DNA of 7,763 nt. Source: an uncultured Pseudomonadota bacterium. Lineage in GTDB: Bacteria; Pseudomonadota; Gammaproteobacteria; Burkholderiales; SG8-41. Numbering within the stretch: the first letter of the stretch is position 1; each line of letters opens with the position of its first letter. The DNA lies in NCBI GenBank assembly GCA_946885605.1, contig CAMPGR010000155.1:1-7763 (forward strand), read 5' to 3'. The position numbers and the translations under genes were made by a program. Shown one piece after another: positions 2,543 through 7,763 of this stretch. The notes beneath the pieces are model-generated. The model had not been told where the DNA came from. It searched no databases and saw nothing but the letters and a program-made list of their open reading frames with translations.

Positions 2543-3877
2543 TTAGCTCGGTGCGCTGACTGGCGGCTCGAACAGGCGTGCGGGATCGCCCGCAGTCACG
2601 TACTCGCGGACGTACTGGACGACGGCGGCCGTCGCCTCGCGGTTTTCGACGGCGCGGCGGAGGTAGTCAAGGGCGTTGACGCTTGCGAGCGTCACGCCTG
2701 CCACCGTGAAGAGCGAGATGAGATCCCAAGCGATGATCTCTGCGTCCGTCCATTCTTCGCGGCGCAGAAGTTCCTCGCAAATATCGAGCTTCACGAAGCC
2801 TGCATCGCCGGTCATCCCGCGGAGGGTGAACGACGCGGCTGCGTTCTGCAGAACACTCAAGCCCTCCTCGAACTCGCCGCGCGCGAGGTGCACCATGCCG
2901 ATCGTCCACTCGCTCCGGATGGCCTCGGCCTCCATGCGAAGCGCCTCGTAGCGGCGGACCGCGCGCTGCGCGTCGTCCATCGCGGCCTCGAGGTTGCCGA
3001 GCCGCAGGTTGCACTCGCCGAGATTCGCGAGCACTCGCGCTTGCTCAACCTCATCGCCGAGCCGTTCGAGCAGCGGGAGCACCTCGCGCCAGCGCTGCTG
3101 CGCCGCGAGCACATCGCCCTGGTCGATCAGGATGCCTGCTTCGAGCATGATGGTTTTTGCGAGCGGCACGGAATCGCCGTATCCCGTGAGCGTGGCGTGC
3201 GCGTGCCGCAGGATCGTGAGCGCCTCCGCGTATCGTGTCATCTTGAAGAGCACGCCCGCCCGGGTGTACTGCGCTTGAGCGGCGTCGAACGCGCCGGTGA
3301 GCAGCGAGGCATAGAAGGCTTCCGCGATTTCGGCCGCGTCCAGCGCTTCTTCGTAGCGCCCGAGATGCCGGAGTGCATTCGATCGGTGCTTCCAGACATC
3401 GCCGAGCGCGGTCCGACATTCAACGTCCGGCAGCGTGTTCGCAATCTGGTCTGCAACCTTGACGAGGAGGAGGGCATATTCGGGCCGTCGGTTCAGTTCG
3501 ACTTCCACCTCTTCGAGCAGCCGCTTCACCATCCCGAACGTTCGGTGCGCGGGATGTCGCTCCAGGTACGAGTTCCATGTCGTGATGGGCAGATTCCGGA
3601 GATCGAGGAAGAATGCATCCGCCGAGGACCACTCCGCTACGACGGCATCGAATTCACTGAGGAGTGTGTTTCGCAGCGGCCCCCGGTGGTGATCCTCGAT
3701 TGCGAAGTAGCCGATGACATCACCGTGGCCGAGAAGAATCATGATCTGCCGAAACTCCTCCTTGATGGCTTCGCACTGTGCGCAGGCGGCGAGGTGCGCC
3801 GCCATCGACCGCCGATCCACCGCCGCGTCGTTCTCGACGTACAAGAGGATGTCCATACGGTCGGGGTGCTCCGTCAC
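2543..3877 (-). CDS. Soluble zinc-finger anti-sigma factor with TPR body
   Basis: This is a 444-aa protein. Near the N-terminus is a canonical zinc-binding anti-sigma (ZAS) motif H-x3-C-x2-C: His28, Cys32, Cys35 in AAHLAACAQC. Residues about 160-410 form helical TPR-like repeats (NALRHLGRYEEALDAAE at 167-183, then YTRAGVLFKMTRYAEAL, ARVLANLGECNLRLGNLEAA and others). No transmembrane segment is visible, so it should be cytoplasmic, unlike many ECF anti-sigma factors. The start is GTG at 3877. It overlaps the sigma stop by four bases (GTGA) and has an AAGGGG Shine-Dalgarno at 3891-3886, eight bases upstream. The longer frame reaching 4030 would lie deep inside the sigma gene. Predicted role: hold the sigma factor in the preceding gene until a signal acts, perhaps through the TPR part. 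Its body is paralogous to the HTH-TPR protein at 4585-5985. Confidence 0.82.
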   Translation of the reverse strand: MTEHPDRMDILLYVENDAAVDRRSMAAHLAACAQCEAIKEEFRQIMILLGHGDVIGYFAIEDHHRGPLRNTLLSEFDAVVAEWSSADAFFLDLRNLPITTWNSYLERHPAHRTFGMVKRLLEEVEVELNRRPEYALLLVKVADQIANTLPDVECRTALGDVWKHRSNALRHLGRYEEALDAAEIAEAFYASLLTGAFDAAQAQYTRAGVLFKMTRYAEALTILRHAHATLTGYGDSVPLAKTIMLEAGILIDQGDVLAAQQRWREVLPLLERLGDEVEQARVLANLGECNLRLGNLEAAMDDAQRAVRRYEALRMEAEAIRSEWTIGMVHLARGEFEEGLSVLQNAAASFTLRGMTGDAGFVKLDICEELLRREEWTDAEIIAWDLISLFTVAGVTLASVNALDYLRRAVENREATAAVVQYVREYVTAGDPARLFEPPVSAPS

Positions 3878-4365
3878 GACGTTCGCCCCTTGACCGTCGC
3901 CGCCAGCGCCTCGCGCACGGCGCGCAGGCAGCGGTGCACGAGCAGGCGACCGTATGCGCCGGACGACTCCGTCGAGGCACAGCGGTGCGCGATTTCTTCC
4001 GGCGAGAGCCCGTCGACGTAGCGAAGCCAAAGCACCTTCTGGCAGCGTTTCGGAATGCGCGCGAGAAGGCGCAAAACGTCCACCCGCGCGCCCACGTCTG
4101 CCCCGAGCTCACGCGTGTCGGTGAGGTCCGGCAACGGTTCCGTGGGTTTCCGATCGCGCCAGTAGTTGCGGCAGGCGTTCGTCGTGGCCTGCACGAGCCA
4201 GCCGCGGTCATCGCCGATCGCGGCGTTGTGGCGGATAAAGGCCACGAAGACATCGTGGATGACTGCGCGGACATCCGCCGGCGGGACGCGGAAGCGCTGC
4301 GCCGCGATGTACCGCATCAAGTCGTAGTGCTCCTCGTACGCGGCAGCCACGCGTTCGCGCGTCAT
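3874..4365 (-). CDS. ECF-like sigma-70 family RNA polymerase sigma factor
   Basis: This 163-aa sigma factor has regions 2 and 4 only. Region 2 spans about residues 10-72: YDLMRYIAAQRF, then a DVFVAFIRH helix at 38-46, then the region 2.4-type GWLVQATTNACRNYWRDR at 55-72. Region 4 starts near residue 103 with IPKRCQKVLWLRYVDGLSPEEIA, the usual start of its helix-turn-helix. Between them is an acidic linker (PLPDLTDTRELGADVG). Length fits ECF-type factors. The start is ATG at 4365, where the domain begins; a GAGAGAG stretch lies just upstream, and the open frame extends to 4575 without domain character. Its stop overlaps the GTG of the ZAS-TPR gene, so the two are translationally coupled as sigma and cognate anti-sigma. 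No C-terminal SnoaL-like or other extension is present. The promoter recognised is unknown. Confidence 0.88.
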   Translation of the reverse strand: MTRERVAAAYEEHYDLMRYIAAQRFRVPPADVRAVIHDVFVAFIRHNAAIGDDRGWLVQATTNACRNYWRDRKPTEPLPDLTDTRELGADVGARVDVLRLLARIPKRCQKVLWLRYVDGLSPEEIAHRCASTESSGAYGRLLVHRCLRAVREALAATVKGRTS

Positions 4366-4401
4366 CGTCTCTCTCAGGTCCGGCGAGGCAGGAACCCCAG
4401 A

Positions 4402-4431
4402 AGTATAGCGAGTCGGCTGATAACGAATTCC
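4402..4431 (-). promoter_or_regulatory. Possible promoter for the sigma/anti-sigma pair
   Basis: On the minus strand TATACT (4407-4402) matches 5 of 6 bases of a housekeeping -10 box, 37 bases before the sigma ATG. No good TTGACA lies upstream. A GGAATT at 4431-4426, 18 bp upstream of the -10, vaguely resembles an ECF -35 (GGAAC-type), which would allow autoregulation. This is weak evidence based on one good hexamer. Confidence 0.3.
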
Positions 4432-4519
4432 CCGGCCGCGGTTCCCCGTCCGGCGAGAGGCCTCTCCGACATGTCGATACCGCCGGCTCCCGCAGCGGAG
4501 CACGGCTTGAGGAGGGGCT

Positions 4520-4588
4520 ATGACCGAGATCGAACTGTTGCTGGCGCTCATCGTTCTGTACAGCAGAATTTCCATCCCGAACGGCTAG
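4520..4588 (+). CDS. Candidate 22-aa hydrophobic small protein, convergent with the HTH-TPR gene
   Basis: On the plus strand, in the gap between the minus-strand HTH-TPR and sigma genes, lies a 22-codon ORF. It begins MTEIELLLALIVLY and ends SRISIPNG, with TAG at 4586-4588. It has an unusually good Shine-Dalgarno for this window, AGGAGGGG at 4510-4517, ending two bases before the ATG. The product has an acidic start, a hydrophobic core of about ten residues and a short polar tail. The stop overlaps the opposite-strand stop of the HTH-TPR gene (4585-4587), so the genes converge tail to tail. It could be a small membrane protein, a signalling pre-peptide, or chance. No clear promoter is visible. 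The ORF is too short for codon statistics. Confidence 0.33.
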   Translation: MTEIELLLALIVLYSRISIPNG

Positions 4589-5985
4589 GTGGTGGCGGTG
4601 GCGTGGCCGGGGGCGCCCCTGGCCCGCTCACCGGCGCGCCACGCCGCCCGGCACGGGTTTTCAGCTTCACGCAGGGCGATGCGGACTTCCGTGACGACTG
4701 CGCGCTTGTCCTCCGCCCGCGTAATACGGCGGAGGTGATCGAGGGCAGCGGCTGCGCTTATCTGGAGCCCCGCGCGGACGAGCACGCCCGCGACACCCTG
4801 CGCGTAGCGGGTGAGCGCACGGTCCGGTGTGGGCTCTTCGAGCATCAGTTCAATGGCATCGAGGCCGACGCAGCCCGCGTCGCTGAAAGCCCCGAGCGCG
4901 GCGAAGTCCTGCTCGACGTGCTGCAGGGCACGGATACCCGCTTGGCGACTTCGGAATCGCGCGAGATAGGACGCGATGTTCCACTGCGTCCGCGCAAGCT
5001 CGGTGCGGTTCTTGAGCGACCGGAAGGCCGCAGCCGCATACCGCAGCCAGTGCCGCGCTGCTGCGGCGTCGCCGCGGCGGACCTCGCACGCGCCGAGGTT
5101 CTGCCAGACGCGCGCGAGCGCCTCCGAGTCGCCGAGATCATCGAGAATGCCGCGCAGCCGGAGCCACGTCTCGCGCGCGGCATCAACCTGCCCTTCATCG
5201 AAGAGAATGCCCGCGAGGAGGAGATCGGCGTGCGCGGCCCGGCGCGCATCGCTCGTGGCGACGAACCGCGCGCGGGCCTGCTGCGCGGCTGCCCGCGCGT
5301 CGGCCCAGCGTTCCATCTTGAACAGCACGCCACCGCGCGTGTACTCCACGCGCCCCGCTTCATTCGTGCAGTACCGCGCCTTGAGGAACAAGCGCGCAGC
5401 GAGCGCTAGGTCTTCGAGCGCTTCCTCGAACTCGCCGAGGTGCCGCAGCGCGTTCGCACGCCCCTTCAGCGCATGCCCTTGGAGGGATGCTGCTAGCTCT
5501 GGCGCGGTGTCCCGCAGCCGCGTCGCCATGCCCGCAGCCGCAACGAAGATCATGGCGGCTTCCCGCGGCGCTTGGTCGATCCGCGGCTCACCGGCGCGGA
5601 GCAGGTGGCACACCATTGTTTCGCTGTCGATGTCGGCCGCTAGGAGCAGATCGGGCCAGTCTTCACCGGTGACGTTCCCGAGGAAGTCCTTGAGCTGGCG
5701 GAGTTCACCGAGGAATAGGCGGCTCAAGCGCTGGTGCGGACTCGCGAGCAGCTCGTCGCCGCGCTCGAACAGCACACCCGGCGTCACGGCTTCACCGGAG
5801 AGTTCCGCGCAGGCCGCGGTCACATCCACGACGAAGCGCCGTGTGGGACCGACTTCGCCCAAGCGAACGCGAAGCACGTGCTGGCGCGAGTAGTTTGCCG
5901 CCTTCGCGATCGCGAACGGAGCAATGTCCTTCCGCCGTAGGAAGAGCTCAAGGCGGGTCAGGAGGTCGATGTGCGGAATGAACAC
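4585..5985 (-). CDS. HTH-TPR transcriptional regulator
   Basis: This is a 466-aa protein with an N-terminal helix-turn-helix of XRE-like appearance (residues about 8-45; core IAPFAIAKAANYSRQHVLRV at 21-40). A linker follows, then a long alpha-helical TPR-like region (about 165-420; GRANALRHLGEFEEAL at 175-190, YTRGGVLFKMERWADAR at 215-231, VWQNLGACEVRRGDAAAA at 293-310). It has no ATPase, receiver, zinc finger or membrane segment. The start is GTG at 5985, with GGAG at 5999-5996 ten bases upstream; it lies 15 bp after the stop of the 55-aa gene, so the two are probably cotranscribed. The body aligns end to end with the ZAS-TPR anti-sigma (shared NALRHLG, GVLFKM, ALDxLRR), indicating an old duplication with head exchange. 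HTH plus TPR is the RNPP architecture, in which the TPR binds a small peptide. Whether that applies here is inference. Confidence 0.8.
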   Translation of the reverse strand: MFIPHIDLLTRLELFLRRKDIAPFAIAKAANYSRQHVLRVRLGEVGPTRRFVVDVTAACAELSGEAVTPGVLFERGDELLASPHQRLSRLFLGELRQLKDFLGNVTGEDWPDLLLAADIDSETMVCHLLRAGEPRIDQAPREAAMIFVAAAGMATRLRDTAPELAASLQGHALKGRANALRHLGEFEEALEDLALAARLFLKARYCTNEAGRVEYTRGGVLFKMERWADARAAAQQARARFVATSDARRAAHADLLLAGILFDEGQVDAARETWLRLRGILDDLGDSEALARVWQNLGACEVRRGDAAAARHWLRYAAAAFRSLKNRTELARTQWNIASYLARFRSRQAGIRALQHVEQDFAALGAFSDAGCVGLDAIELMLEEPTPDRALTRYAQGVAGVLVRAGLQISAAAALDHLRRITRAEDKRAVVTEVRIALREAENPCRAAWRAGERARGAPGHATATT

Positions 5986-6000
5986 CGGTTGCGATCTCCG

Positions 6001-6168
6001 TCAGCTCGCCATCGCTAGTTCCACCTCCGGCTGCTGCGCCCGTGGTGTCCAGCTCTTCCAGCGCTCGTAGGCCAAGTAGCCATCGCAGAACGTCGGGAAG
6101 TCGAGGGGACCGAGGAGGGCGCACATGGCCTCGTAGTCCTGGTGCACGTCTGGGTGTATTTCCGTCAT
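6001..6168 (-). CDS. 55-aa conserved-looking small protein, first gene of the cassette
   Basis: An ATG at 6168 opens a 55-codon frame ending in TGA at 6001-6003. It is followed after 15 bp by the GTG of the HTH-TPR gene, so it looks like the first gene of the operon. The product is acidic and aromatic, starting MTEIHPDVHQDYEAMCALLG, then FPTFCDGYLAYERWKSW (residues 24-40) and a polar tail. It has two cysteines and no hydrophobic stretch, signal peptide or known motif. Coding support is good: 46 of 55 codons end in G or C, matching the neighbouring genes. The Shine-Dalgarno is poor (GAG touching the ATG). I do not recognise the family. Possible roles are a partner of the HTH-TPR regulator or a translated leader for it. 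A longer overlapping minus-strand frame (6229-5948) has low-complexity, Arg/Pro-rich shadow character. Confidence 0.55.
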   Translation of the reverse strand: MTEIHPDVHQDYEAMCALLGPLDFPTFCDGYLAYERWKSWTPRAQQPEVELAMAS

Positions 6169-6627
6169 CTCGAAAGAGGAGTGACGTGCTTACCTCTTCC
6201 CCTACCCGCGATCTGGGGGCATGACGCAAATGTGTCTAGGTCCTCGGTTTTTATTGACGCCCGTAAATGCGCCGTGGTCTCCTCGTGGGTCTTCGGTTCC
6301 ACGACCCATGAAAACGCTGAACAGTCCGGCCGCTGGTGCCCGGCGGACCCACGCGTCGCGGGCGCTGCCACTCACGCGCGCCGCGCCGCACGGCGTTAGA
6401 CACGGATCGTCGTGGACCGACACGACAGGCGCGACGGCCGGCACCAGCGACCACCATTCGGAGGAGCGCACGCGGGGATCGGAATGGCAACTCGCGGTGC
6501 AGCGGCCGCGCTTCGTCGCGGAGGAGCACGACGAGCGCGGCGTACGCGATATTGAGGTCGTAGCAAATGCATAGGTATCAAGGCATGGGAGCCGTGGCTG
6601 CGGGCACCGCCCGCGGTGGTGGCTCAC

Positions 6628-6775: not shown

Positions 6776-6831
6776 ACCATTTTCTTTGAAGAGCAAGGGT
6801 AAGGATTTGCGCCACTCCGTCACTCCTTCCG

Positions 6832-6860
6832 TTGACGAGCCAGCACACGGATGTGAATAC
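6832..6860 (+). promoter_or_regulatory. Possible promoter of the secreted-protein gene
   Basis: TTGACG (6832-6837, 5 of 6 to the -35 consensus) is followed after 17 bp by GAATAC (6855-6860), a poor -10 preceded by TGT as in an extended -10 (TGTGAATAC). The predicted start near 6867 leaves a leader of about 50 bases before the ATG at 6916. This is the best candidate seen upstream of the gene. Confidence 0.33.
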
Positions 6861-6915
6861 GGCCACGCGGTTTCTGCCCGTCCAGCTCGAAGGTCCAACA
6901 AAGGGGAACCCTTCG

Positions 6916-7763
6916 ATGATTCACCGTCTGAAGCTGCTGATCGTCTTTGTGATCGCGTTCGCGCCGCGCCTGGAGGGCGGCGTGCTAACCGAGTCCGCCA
7001 TGGAGCGCTCTCGCGCCCGACTTGAACCGGTGGCACCGCTCTTTGAGAAGAACGTAGGTCAGTACAAGCCGGAGGCTGTCTTCGCGGCGCGGACGCGCGG
7101 CTACACGGCCTTTCTCACTCCCCTCGAAACCGTCCTGGCGCTTTCCTCCGGTGGTGCAGGCGGTCCTGTTGTGCGCTTCAGATTTGCTGGCGGTCGTCAT
7201 TCCGAACTCCTTGGTCAAGAGACCGCATTGGAGTCTCGCTACTACGTTCGCGCAAATGCGACGTACGCCCCGCCCCTTTTCGGAACCGTTTTGGTGAAAG
7301 ATGTGTATTGCGAGACCGACGTTCTCTACCGGCTCTCGCCGGAGGGCCTTGCGTTTGACGTCCACCTGCAACCCGGGAGTGACCCGTCGAGCATCGCGTT
7401 AGAGGTCGATGCACCAGGGCCGCTGAGCGTCACACAGGATGGAGACCTGCGCATCCCGACAGGACGTGCCGAGCCGATTGTGCAGCGCCGTCCCATCGCA
7501 TTCCAACTCGAGGACGGCCAACGCCAGCCCGTCGATGCCCGGTACTCTATTGATAGCGCTGGACGTGTGCGGTTCATCCTCGGGGCATACGACCGCAGCC
7601 GTCCGCTCATCATTGACCCGGTACTTACCTATGCGATGGTGCTCGATGGTAGCGAAAACGACGTCGCGCTGAACGCCTTTGTCGACGCCTCCCGCAACGT
7701 CTACCTAACCTCCATGAGAAGGCCCAATCCGTCAACGGCCGACGTGGCGGCCAGCGCTGCTTC
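6916..7763 (+). CDS. Secreted DUF7948/SBBP (beta-propeller) repeat protein, N-terminal part
   Basis: The gene is cut by the right window edge; 282 codons are visible without a stop. The start is ATG at 6916, with AAGGGG at 6901-6906 nine bases upstream. Residues 1-16 look like a signal peptide (MIHRLKLLIVFVIAFA), although no ideal cleavage site is visible. The mature part opens with LFEKNVGQYKPEAVFAARTR (42-61) and contains RYYV and LSPEGLAFDVHLQPG. It reaches PLIIDPVLTY (230-239) followed by LDGSENDVALNAFVDASRNVYLT. This order is typical of the DUF7948 domain that precedes SBBP beta-propeller repeats in large extracellular proteins of Acidobacteriota and related phyla, usually well over 500 aa. 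The function of the family is poorly known; an extracellular or surface role is inferred. It is divergent from the sigma cassette across 747 bp. Confidence 0.8.
   Translation, partial: MIHRLKLLIVFVIAFAPRLEGGVLTESAMERSRARLEPVAPLFEKNVGQYKPEAVFAARTRGYTAFLTPLETVLALSSGGAGGPVVRFRFAGGRHSELLGQETALESRYYVRANATYAPPLFGTVLVKDVYCETDVLYRLSPEGLAFDVHLQPGSDPSSIALEVDAPGPLSVTQDGDLRIPTGRAEPIVQRRPIAFQLEDGQRQPVDARYSIDSAGRVRFILGAYDRSRPLIIDPVLTYAMVLDGSENDVALNAFVDASRNVYLTSMRRPNPSTADVAASAA

Follow-up and report, generated by a model that had tools for sequence, protein, structure and literature searches.

A predicted ECF sigma/soluble anti-sigma cassette in which one TPR body is retained with two alternative heads

Among described soluble zinc anti-sigma (ZAS) factors, those closest to the system reported here are ChrR, in which a ZAS domain is joined to a cupin-like domain and which works with RpoE, and RshA, the partner of SigH, as far as the available portions of PMC8999054 describe them. 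In the accessible part of PMC7406223, the class I ZAS anti-sigma factors are recognized by an Hx3Cx2C motif across helices 2–3 of an N-terminal helical bundle. Here we analyze a 7,763-nucleotide (nt) stretch of DNA (contig CAMPGR010000155.1; hereafter the window) whose minus strand carries, from 6168 to 2543, four open reading frames (ORFs) encoding in this order a 55-amino-acid (aa) protein, a tetratricopeptide-repeat (TPR) protein with a helix-turn-helix-like (HTH) head (HTH-TPR), an extracytoplasmic function (ECF) sigma factor, and a TPR protein with a ZAS-type head (ZAS-TPR). An earlier note on this DNA had listed these four ORFs, and we found them at its coordinates; the starts of the sigma and ZAS-TPR genes were then refined. 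ZAS-TPR resembles the ZAS anti-sigma factors, as those portions present them, in being cytoplasmic, in its N-terminal Hx3Cx2C helical head, and in its ECF partner, and it shares with ChrR a separate C-terminal sensor; unlike in the ChrR type, this sensor is a long TPR superhelix, and a second copy of it with an HTH head is encoded in the same operon. ECF42-type sigma factors, which carry a C-terminal TPR extension (available portions of PMC8103513 and PMC8999054), likewise bring ECF regulation under TPR repeats, but in the cassette the TPR bodies lie in separate genes with other heads rather than being fused to the sigma factor. The cassette thus varies the known ECF sigma/soluble anti-sigma theme in a new way; among the titles, abstract beginnings, and passages seen in a full-text search, outside which subscription papers mostly fall, none describes a ZAS-TPR anti-sigma factor or an HTH-TPR/sigma/ZAS-TPR operon. 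ECF sigma factors are a major class of bacterial signaling, soluble anti-sigma factors with peptide-binding-type sensors are poorly known, and the cassette has kept both products of a sensor duplication, each with its own head, next to each other. Our reading, to which we assign a probability of about 0.6, is that of an autoregulated ECF sigma factor that has ZAS-TPR as its soluble anti-sigma factor and shares its promoter with a TPR paralogue bound to DNA there.

The paralogy of the two TPR bodies, which the earlier note had read by eye, is borne out by alignment. BLASTP aligns HTH-TPR with ZAS-TPR over 316 aa at 35% identity (E 6e-40), and a profile-profile comparison of the two families aligns 353 columns with a probability of 100 (E 2.5e-46); the landmarks picked out by eye (NALRHLG, YTRxGVLFKM, NLGxC, and ALDxLRR) are all present in the BLASTP alignment. 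A tree of 88 bodies, covering the wider sigma-linked TPR family, places the HTH-TPRs in a single clade (support 99), which joins this cassette's ZAS-TPR orthologues (31-row set, 98). With a slower method and 46 rows, the HTH-TPR clade is recovered at 100/99, and HTH-TPR and the cassette ZAS-TPR lie together on one side of a 99/97 branch. Both trees are unrooted, and the degenerate-head protein L060 falls in the HTH-TPR/cassette ZAS-TPR region. The 88-row tree started from 140 excised bodies; L067 and L070 were dropped as short, L093 and L065 7705–9393 were omitted by hand, and only 25 database proteins were retained; the rows of the 46-row tree were hand-picked, and head labels of database rows follow the list (ZAS-TPR or HTH-TPR relatives) from which each row came. 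Generic TPR likeness, the outcome that the earlier note had set against its own claim, is ruled out as the cause of the similarity by both trees, in addition to the significant alignments. One TPR body has been duplicated and retained around the ECF sigma gene, with a DNA-binding-type head on one copy and an anti-sigma-type head on the other.

The zinc head is the widespread state, and ZAS-TPR the widespread form, with 57 zinc heads among the 88 tree rows, 15 HTH heads, and 16 rows with neither. Two proteins, P0170 and P0171, combine an HTH head with a ZAS-TPR-type C-terminal tail and appear intermediate between ZAS-TPR and HTH-TPR. Because the HTH-TPRs form one clade, the zinc head is widespread, and these intermediates exist, a single head swap on a copied sensor is the simplest history, with HTH-TPR needing only one origin on the tree; the cassette is a head-swapped branch of a larger sigma/TPR family. 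Positions 2, 5, 6, 9, 12, and 13 of a TPR belong to the groove, and we set the numbering from repeat anchors. Groove-type positions are identical in both bodies at 12 of 36 places, structural positions at 12 of 42, and other positions at 11 of 126 (groove versus other, Fisher p 0.0006), like conservation of the kind that a shared type of ligand would predict. The C-terminal tails of the two bodies differ.

The head of ZAS-TPR has the features of a class I ZAS domain, in that Hx3Cx2C sits on an N-terminal helical bundle whose helices span residues 8–15, 23–32, 34–51, and 53–60 in the structure model. Protein searches, each scoring ~8000 best candidates, yielded 105 ZAS-TPR relatives, among them one generic TPR protein, and 63 HTH-TPR relatives; the window proteins and picks from these sets make up alignments A1 (36 rows) and A2 (39 rows), respectively. 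The motif is present in 87 of the 105 relatives and in all 36 rows chosen for A1. The remaining 18 comprise seven full-length proteins with CxxC, the generic TPR protein P0109, and 10 proteins lacking both parts of the motif, most of them short. The family zf-HC2 was matched by 13 of the 36 A1 rows at E ≤ 0.1 (best 3e-5), with window ZAS-TPR unmatched. The sigma factor matches Sigma70_r4_2 (E 2.6e-7, 30.6 bits against a cut-off of 25.7) and, just under the cut-off of 24 bits, Sigma70_r2 (E 1.3e-4, 22.2 bits); no region 1 or region 3 family is among its Pfam matches, leaving the regions 2 and 4 of an ECF factor only. Its most likely start is the in-frame ATG at 4575, 9 nt past the HTH-TPR stop, which gives 233 aa and an N-terminal extension similar to that of the sigma factor in a related genome, G015 (alignment A3). 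The most likely ZAS-TPR start is the GTG at 3877, in a 4-nt overlap with the sigma stop, so that, as for ZAS anti-sigma factors, the gene lies beside that of an ECF sigma factor. The motif and the gene position suggest that the ZAS-TPR head probably holds the sigma factor. A clade of six zinc-headed TPR proteins (L038, L041, L077, L078, L079, and L081) has no sigma gene directly upstream; these are possibly orphan anti-sigma factors or reflect another use of the head.

For the HTH-TPR head, AlphaFold2 predicts helices at residues 11–19, 23–30, 34–41, and 49–63 in an HTH-like domain (predicted local distance difference test score ~95), and on this model the head probably binds DNA. A profile of the head matches free-standing HTH proteins of relatives in the fetched loci at 5e-27 to 1e-29; the label XRE-type that we use for this HTH refers to the predicted helices and to sub-threshold Pfam and weak PHROG matches of these free-standing relatives. 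Three highly similar free HTH proteins of ~80 aa (L112 6117–6371, L113 6335–6589, and L114 6319–6612, from genomes G001, G008, and G017) have the recognition-helix letters YSRQHLLRIRMG, and no ORF beside them in these loci matches the sigma or TPR profiles. A small free HTH protein of this kind is a possible donor of the HTH-TPR head. The sigma factors of L045 and L054 bear a fused N-terminal HTH of this kind, and the sites ahead of these two fusions are promoter-like, with a spacing of 17 nt, and score lower (17.6 and 19.1); L049 has free HTH ORFs after a sigma/TPR pair, and L065 has one HTH ORF near TPR genes. The HTH-sigma fusions suggest that HTH and sigma belong together and may act jointly at promoters.

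The promoter before the cassette, GGGTAGGGA-N13-GTCACTCC, has the spacing and position of an ECF promoter, and we infer from this fit that the sigma factors of these sigma/TPR pairs read it. The exact pattern GGGTAG-N16-GTCACTCC, chosen after a few of its sites had been seen, occurs at 79 sites in 18 of 148 genomes of the class, compared to 2 sites for the reversed pattern, and 77 of the 79 fall in 16 of 18 genomes of one family. Neighboring positions that formed no part of the search are also conserved (G at position 7 in 80/80, G at 8 in 74/80, and A at 9 in 72/80), and a longer form of the promoter in a phylum sample gave 30 sites in 5 of 396 genomes, all five of the same family, with none for the control. 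A weight matrix placed a site near 18 of 51 sigma/TPR pairs and in none of 204 shuffled upstream stretches. Eight of these sites fall in the stretch that runs from 250 nt ahead of the sigma open frame's start to 200 nt past it, and the other 10 within 250 nt downstream of the TPR gene. This first matrix included sites at the pairs themselves; a second, built from 64 sites away from pairs, still found 18 of 51, with 1 of 51 on the opposite strand. The promoter is conserved at the cassette and beside many pairs, and the window's own sigma factor may recognize it, as autoregulation would require. Scans for sigma-70 promoters and for terminators yielded no signal that stood out clearly from shuffles.

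A second site in the window, at 6797–6826 (matrix score 28.9), brings the number with at most 2 mismatches to 2, versus 0.03 expected from shuffles. It precedes a divergent ORF (6916–7763) that matches DUF7948 (E 7.8e-32) and is open to the window end; in G015, a large exported-looking protein with CARDB repeats is encoded divergently from the cassette. The regulatory unit reaches past 2543–6168, to a promoter and dyad at 6178–6236 and a divergent promoter and ORF at 6797–7763. The earlier note had overlooked these parts (the shared promoter, the dyad, and the DUF7948 ORF) as well as the larger sigma/TPR family, in which ZAS-TPR predominates and HTH-TPR requires a single origin. Elsewhere, 30 of the 79 ORFs that stand first downstream of a site were selected mechanically for a Pfam scan, which gave 13 with matches above cut-off, 3 with matches below it only, and 14 with none at E ≤ 0.01. 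Because the families are mixed (M4 and astacin proteases, trypsin, GDSL, PLD, dynamin, ion channel, DUF4407, CsgG, radical SAM, FtsK, NMT1, and saccharopine dehydrogenase), we claim no single regulon function. The promoter code gives dozens of testable sites in uncultured Acidobacteriota; in the full-text search, its letters occur together only in papers unrelated by title. At six loci (L154, L183, L192, L194, L195, and L201), the promoter lies directly downstream of the TPR gene and ~300 nt before a gene for an ABC-transporter ATPase, and judging from this arrangement a transporter is apparently driven by these six sigma/TPR pairs. Small proteins of two kinds (~70–130 aa) recur first behind the promoter, one around FGWPHAIRAILDRFEESGIDLTAASxEEEIA and the other around xxLVANFARVHxLxSxFDGDPxKWxEF; one of each kind was scanned, with no Pfam match.

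In the 150 nt upstream of the 55-aa gene and of its G015 counterpart, the window and G015 have GACACATTTGCGTCA, GCGGGTAGGG, and GTCACTCCTC in common and in the same order; the longest match between the two upstream regions in 2000 shuffles was 12 nt. GCGGGTAGGG and GTCACTCCTC also occur upstream of sigma in L037, L042, L044, L046, L052, L053, L054, and L082 (as imperfect blocks in L046, L052, and L054), and in L088 they stand ~475 nt ahead of an open frame. The dyad GACACATTTGCGTCA is identical in 15 of 15 letters at the same place in G015, where it lies 13 nt from the −35 element. Within 80 nt upstream of the promoter, it accompanies only 2 of 80 sites, both of them HTH-TPR cassettes, and it was not found in the corresponding 80 nt at the other 78, allowing up to 2–3 mismatches. 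This distribution is as expected for an HTH-TPR site and makes the dyad a candidate HTH-TPR operator.

The 55-aa ORF is very likely a real gene because its four database homologues (63–98% identical) conserve the C-terminus; its counterpart at the same place in G015 is weak (36% of 42 aa, E 0.011). Receptors of the RRNPP(A) class are TPR proteins of 250–500 aa, with an HTH head in several classes, and are encoded adjacent to a small exported propeptide. HTH-TPR, with 466 aa, TPRs, and an HTH-like fold, falls within the receptor part of this description, and it adjoins the conserved 55-aa protein, in which no hydrophobic leader was seen by eye, no signal-peptide predictor having been used. No chain of the class, which in the available portion of PMC10075063 comprises PlcR, NprR, Rgg, and Rap, is among the PDB sequence matches at E ≤ 0.1, and the fold similarity to RRNPP receptors is no greater than to eukaryotic TPRs; we do not assign HTH-TPR to the class. 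A role of the 55-aa protein as TPR ligand is only an idea. ZAS-TPR also shows a weak, TPR-level match (25.8 bits) to the NsdA family of TPR-like regulators (NF053720), far under the curated cut-off of 75 bits.

In the mechanism that we propose, the sigma factor would guide RNA polymerase to GGGTAGGGA-N13-GTCACTCC at its own operon, at the divergent DUF7948 gene, and elsewhere in the genome. ZAS-TPR, translationally coupled to sigma through the 4-nt overlap, would keep it inactive via the zinc helical head, and a peptide or protein sensed by the ZAS-TPR superhelix would, on binding, free the sigma factor. HTH-TPR would be a copy of this TPR body in which the anti-sigma head gave way to a small DNA-binding domain of XRE type, a kind also encoded as a free-standing protein. 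HTH-TPR may occupy the dyad just upstream of the −35 element, a position that favors activation, and its groove, with the same conserved positions, may read the same kind of signal, such that sigma release and promoter access would be set together. The 55-aa protein would be the first product of the operon. A bolder version, which we consider unlikely, makes this a switch with one signal and two outputs: one and the same intracellular ligand, perhaps the 55-aa protein via its conserved C-terminus, would fit both TPR grooves, free sigma from ZAS-TPR, and switch the DNA-bound paralogue at the dyad, and head-swapping (anti-sigma, HTH, HTH on sigma, HTH free) would be a general rewiring of one promoter class in this bacterial family.

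The layout recurs among relatives to a limited extent. For 22 of 63 HTH-TPR clusters, the longest contig is exactly as long as that of one of 104 ZAS-TPR clusters (control with shifted lengths, mean 0.37 and maximum 3), which speaks against the rare adjacency that the earlier note had named as fatal to its proposal. In one assembly, the locus tags VGQ65_14155 and VGQ65_14165 are two steps apart, with room for one gene between P0121 and P0021. The heads segregate, as counted with head profiles built from rows of the same two lists: the HTH head is found in 58/63 and the ZAS head in 0/63 of the HTH-TPR list, and the ZAS head in 94/104 and the HTH head in 0/104 of the ZAS-TPR list. In the long fetched loci, which represent the stronger ZAS-TPR-profile matches and leave out weaker ones (e.g., G023, G027, G036, G044, G048, G060, G086, and G089), an ECF sigma gene lies directly ahead of 48 of the 67 genes for TPR proteins of 330 aa or more; two of the other 19 encode HTH-TPRs and precede sigma. 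A ZAS-TPR-profile match at 1e-10 occurs in 31 of the 148 class genomes. When all candidates in the 18 family genomes were scored, HTH-TPR was found in one, G015, the sole relative genome with HTH-TPR, where gene order is the same as in the window. The few organism names attached to relatives indicate Thermoanaerobaculia or, more widely, Acidobacteriota. The interpretation in the earlier note is supported in part: duplication of one TPR body, kept with two kinds of head around an ECF sigma gene, is borne out, and control of both regulators by one ligand, or competition between the TPR bodies, stays a conjecture.

Several of our results weigh against the proposed mechanism. Seven full-length ZAS-TPR relatives lack the histidine of the zinc motif, the window's own zinc head lies under Pfam detection, and none of the Pfam families shown (25 of 28) for 39 HTH-TPR relatives is an HTH family. 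A promoter site is absent from the scanned stretches of 33 of 51 pairs; the window, L066, and L082 have one just outside, leaving 30 of 51 with none seen in either place. No site stands at the start of the L001 sigma gene, orthologous to that of the window, or ahead of the divergent exported-looking protein of G015, and genomes with up to 11 TPR-profile matches have one promoter motif, which any of several paralogous sigma factors might read. The dyad evidence comes from two loci, and comparable dyads, with no role assigned, are sparse elsewhere in the 18 family genomes (4 in G015, 5 in G017, and 0–2 in each of the others; the reversed pattern occurs at 3 places in all). Equal-length contigs are lacking for 41 of 63 HTH-TPR clusters (17 with contigs <4500 nt, 24 with longer ones), which is not evidence of absence since clusters represent several sequences, and a match covering the HTH head occurs in 1 of 148 class genomes (G015; at most 11 candidates scored per genome). 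Finally, G001 has an orthologous sigma/ZAS-TPR pair (L001) with no HTH-TPR found, which together with the rarity of HTH-TPR counts against an obligatory three-part system.

HTH-TPR might instead be an independent repressor of the operon, the TPR bodies having diverged to different partners and their adjacency being a relic of tandem duplication without joint control, with ZAS-TPR still an anti-sigma factor. G001 retains sigma and ZAS-TPR with no HTH-TPR found, the bodies are 35% identical with different tails, and the dyad is confined to cassette promoters among the 80 sites, as in simple autoregulation. We nevertheless regard this explanation as rather unlikely, since both bodies share groove positions, the linkage is repeated over diverged cassettes, and an HTH on the sigma factor itself in two paralogues suggests joint action at promoters. 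In another alternative, the TPR bodies would pair, with promoter-bound HTH-TPR capturing ZAS-TPR as a heterodimer, freeing sigma locally, and a ligand controlling the pairing. This is a local form of the competition between TPR bodies raised in the earlier note; long superhelices with shared positions would allow it, gene order and translational coupling would match protein amounts, and the HTH-sigma fusions keep HTH and sigma together, yet we judge it improbable. Also highly improbable, in our estimate, is that the head labeled ZAS is not inhibitory and the TPR protein serves sigma as co-activator or chaperone. The 16 of 88 tree rows with neither zinc nor HTH head, some of them sigma-paired, the degenerate head of L060, and the six zinc-headed proteins without sigma directly upstream would suit such a role; retention of Hx3Cx2C in most relatives, with seven of the rest lacking the histidine only, argues for an anti-sigma factor.

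Table 1. Coordinates of the cassette and of its regulatory surroundings in the window
Feature	Coordinates	Strand	Remarks
55-aa protein gene	6001..6168	−	First gene of the operon; C-terminus PEVxxAMA(R)S kept; ends 15 nt ahead of HTH-TPR
HTH-TPR protein P0001, 466 aa	4585..5985	−	ORF starts with GTG
HTH head of HTH-TPR, residues ~10–72	5770..5958	−	Recognition-helix region YSRQHxLRxR
ECF sigma factor	3874..4575	−	Core from ~4365; N-terminal extension resembling that of the G015 sigma factor
ZAS-TPR protein P0002, predicted soluble anti-sigma factor	2543..3877	−	GTG start overlaps sigma stop (GTGA)
Hx3Cx2C zinc anti-sigma motif (H29, C33, C36 of P0002)	3773..3796	−	
ECF-type promoter of the cassette, GGGTAG-N16-GTCACTCC	6178..6207	−	Exact match
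Imperfect dyad GACACATTTGCGTCA, half-sites GACRCA/TGYGTC, candidate HTH-TPR operator	6222..6236	−	14 nt upstream of the −35-like element
Second promoter of the cassette class, GGGTAAGGATTTGCGCCACTCCGTCACTCC	6797..6826	+	1 mismatch; divergent from the cassette
Divergent ORF with DUF7948	6916..7763	+	Signal-like N-terminus by eye; predicted target; runs past window end

A mobile or plasmid origin and membership in a defense system were considered and rejected. No ZAS-TPR relative was found in viral contigs, where ZAS-TPR only was searched; in plasmids, a single partial match at 31%, to a BTAD regulator from Streptomyces, was obtained for ZAS-TPR and none for HTH-TPR; and five window proteins had no PADLOC match at E ≤ 1. 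An Rfam scan of the window returned tRNA only. Within 1143–2445, this tRNA-Arg(CCG) is followed by a stretch of lower G+C (0.57–0.60 versus mostly 0.61–0.70 elsewhere), possibly a remnant of an element integrated at the tRNA. For the 390-aa ORF in this stretch, Pfam, NCBIfam, PADLOC, and PHROG gave no match at the thresholds applied, and its segment PDFLVWKRS...ALDTKGG is nuclease-like by eye. Ahead of the tRNA, the plus strand encodes an Abhydrolase_11 family protein (13–606, E 3e-67) and a response-regulator receiver-domain protein (575–1060).

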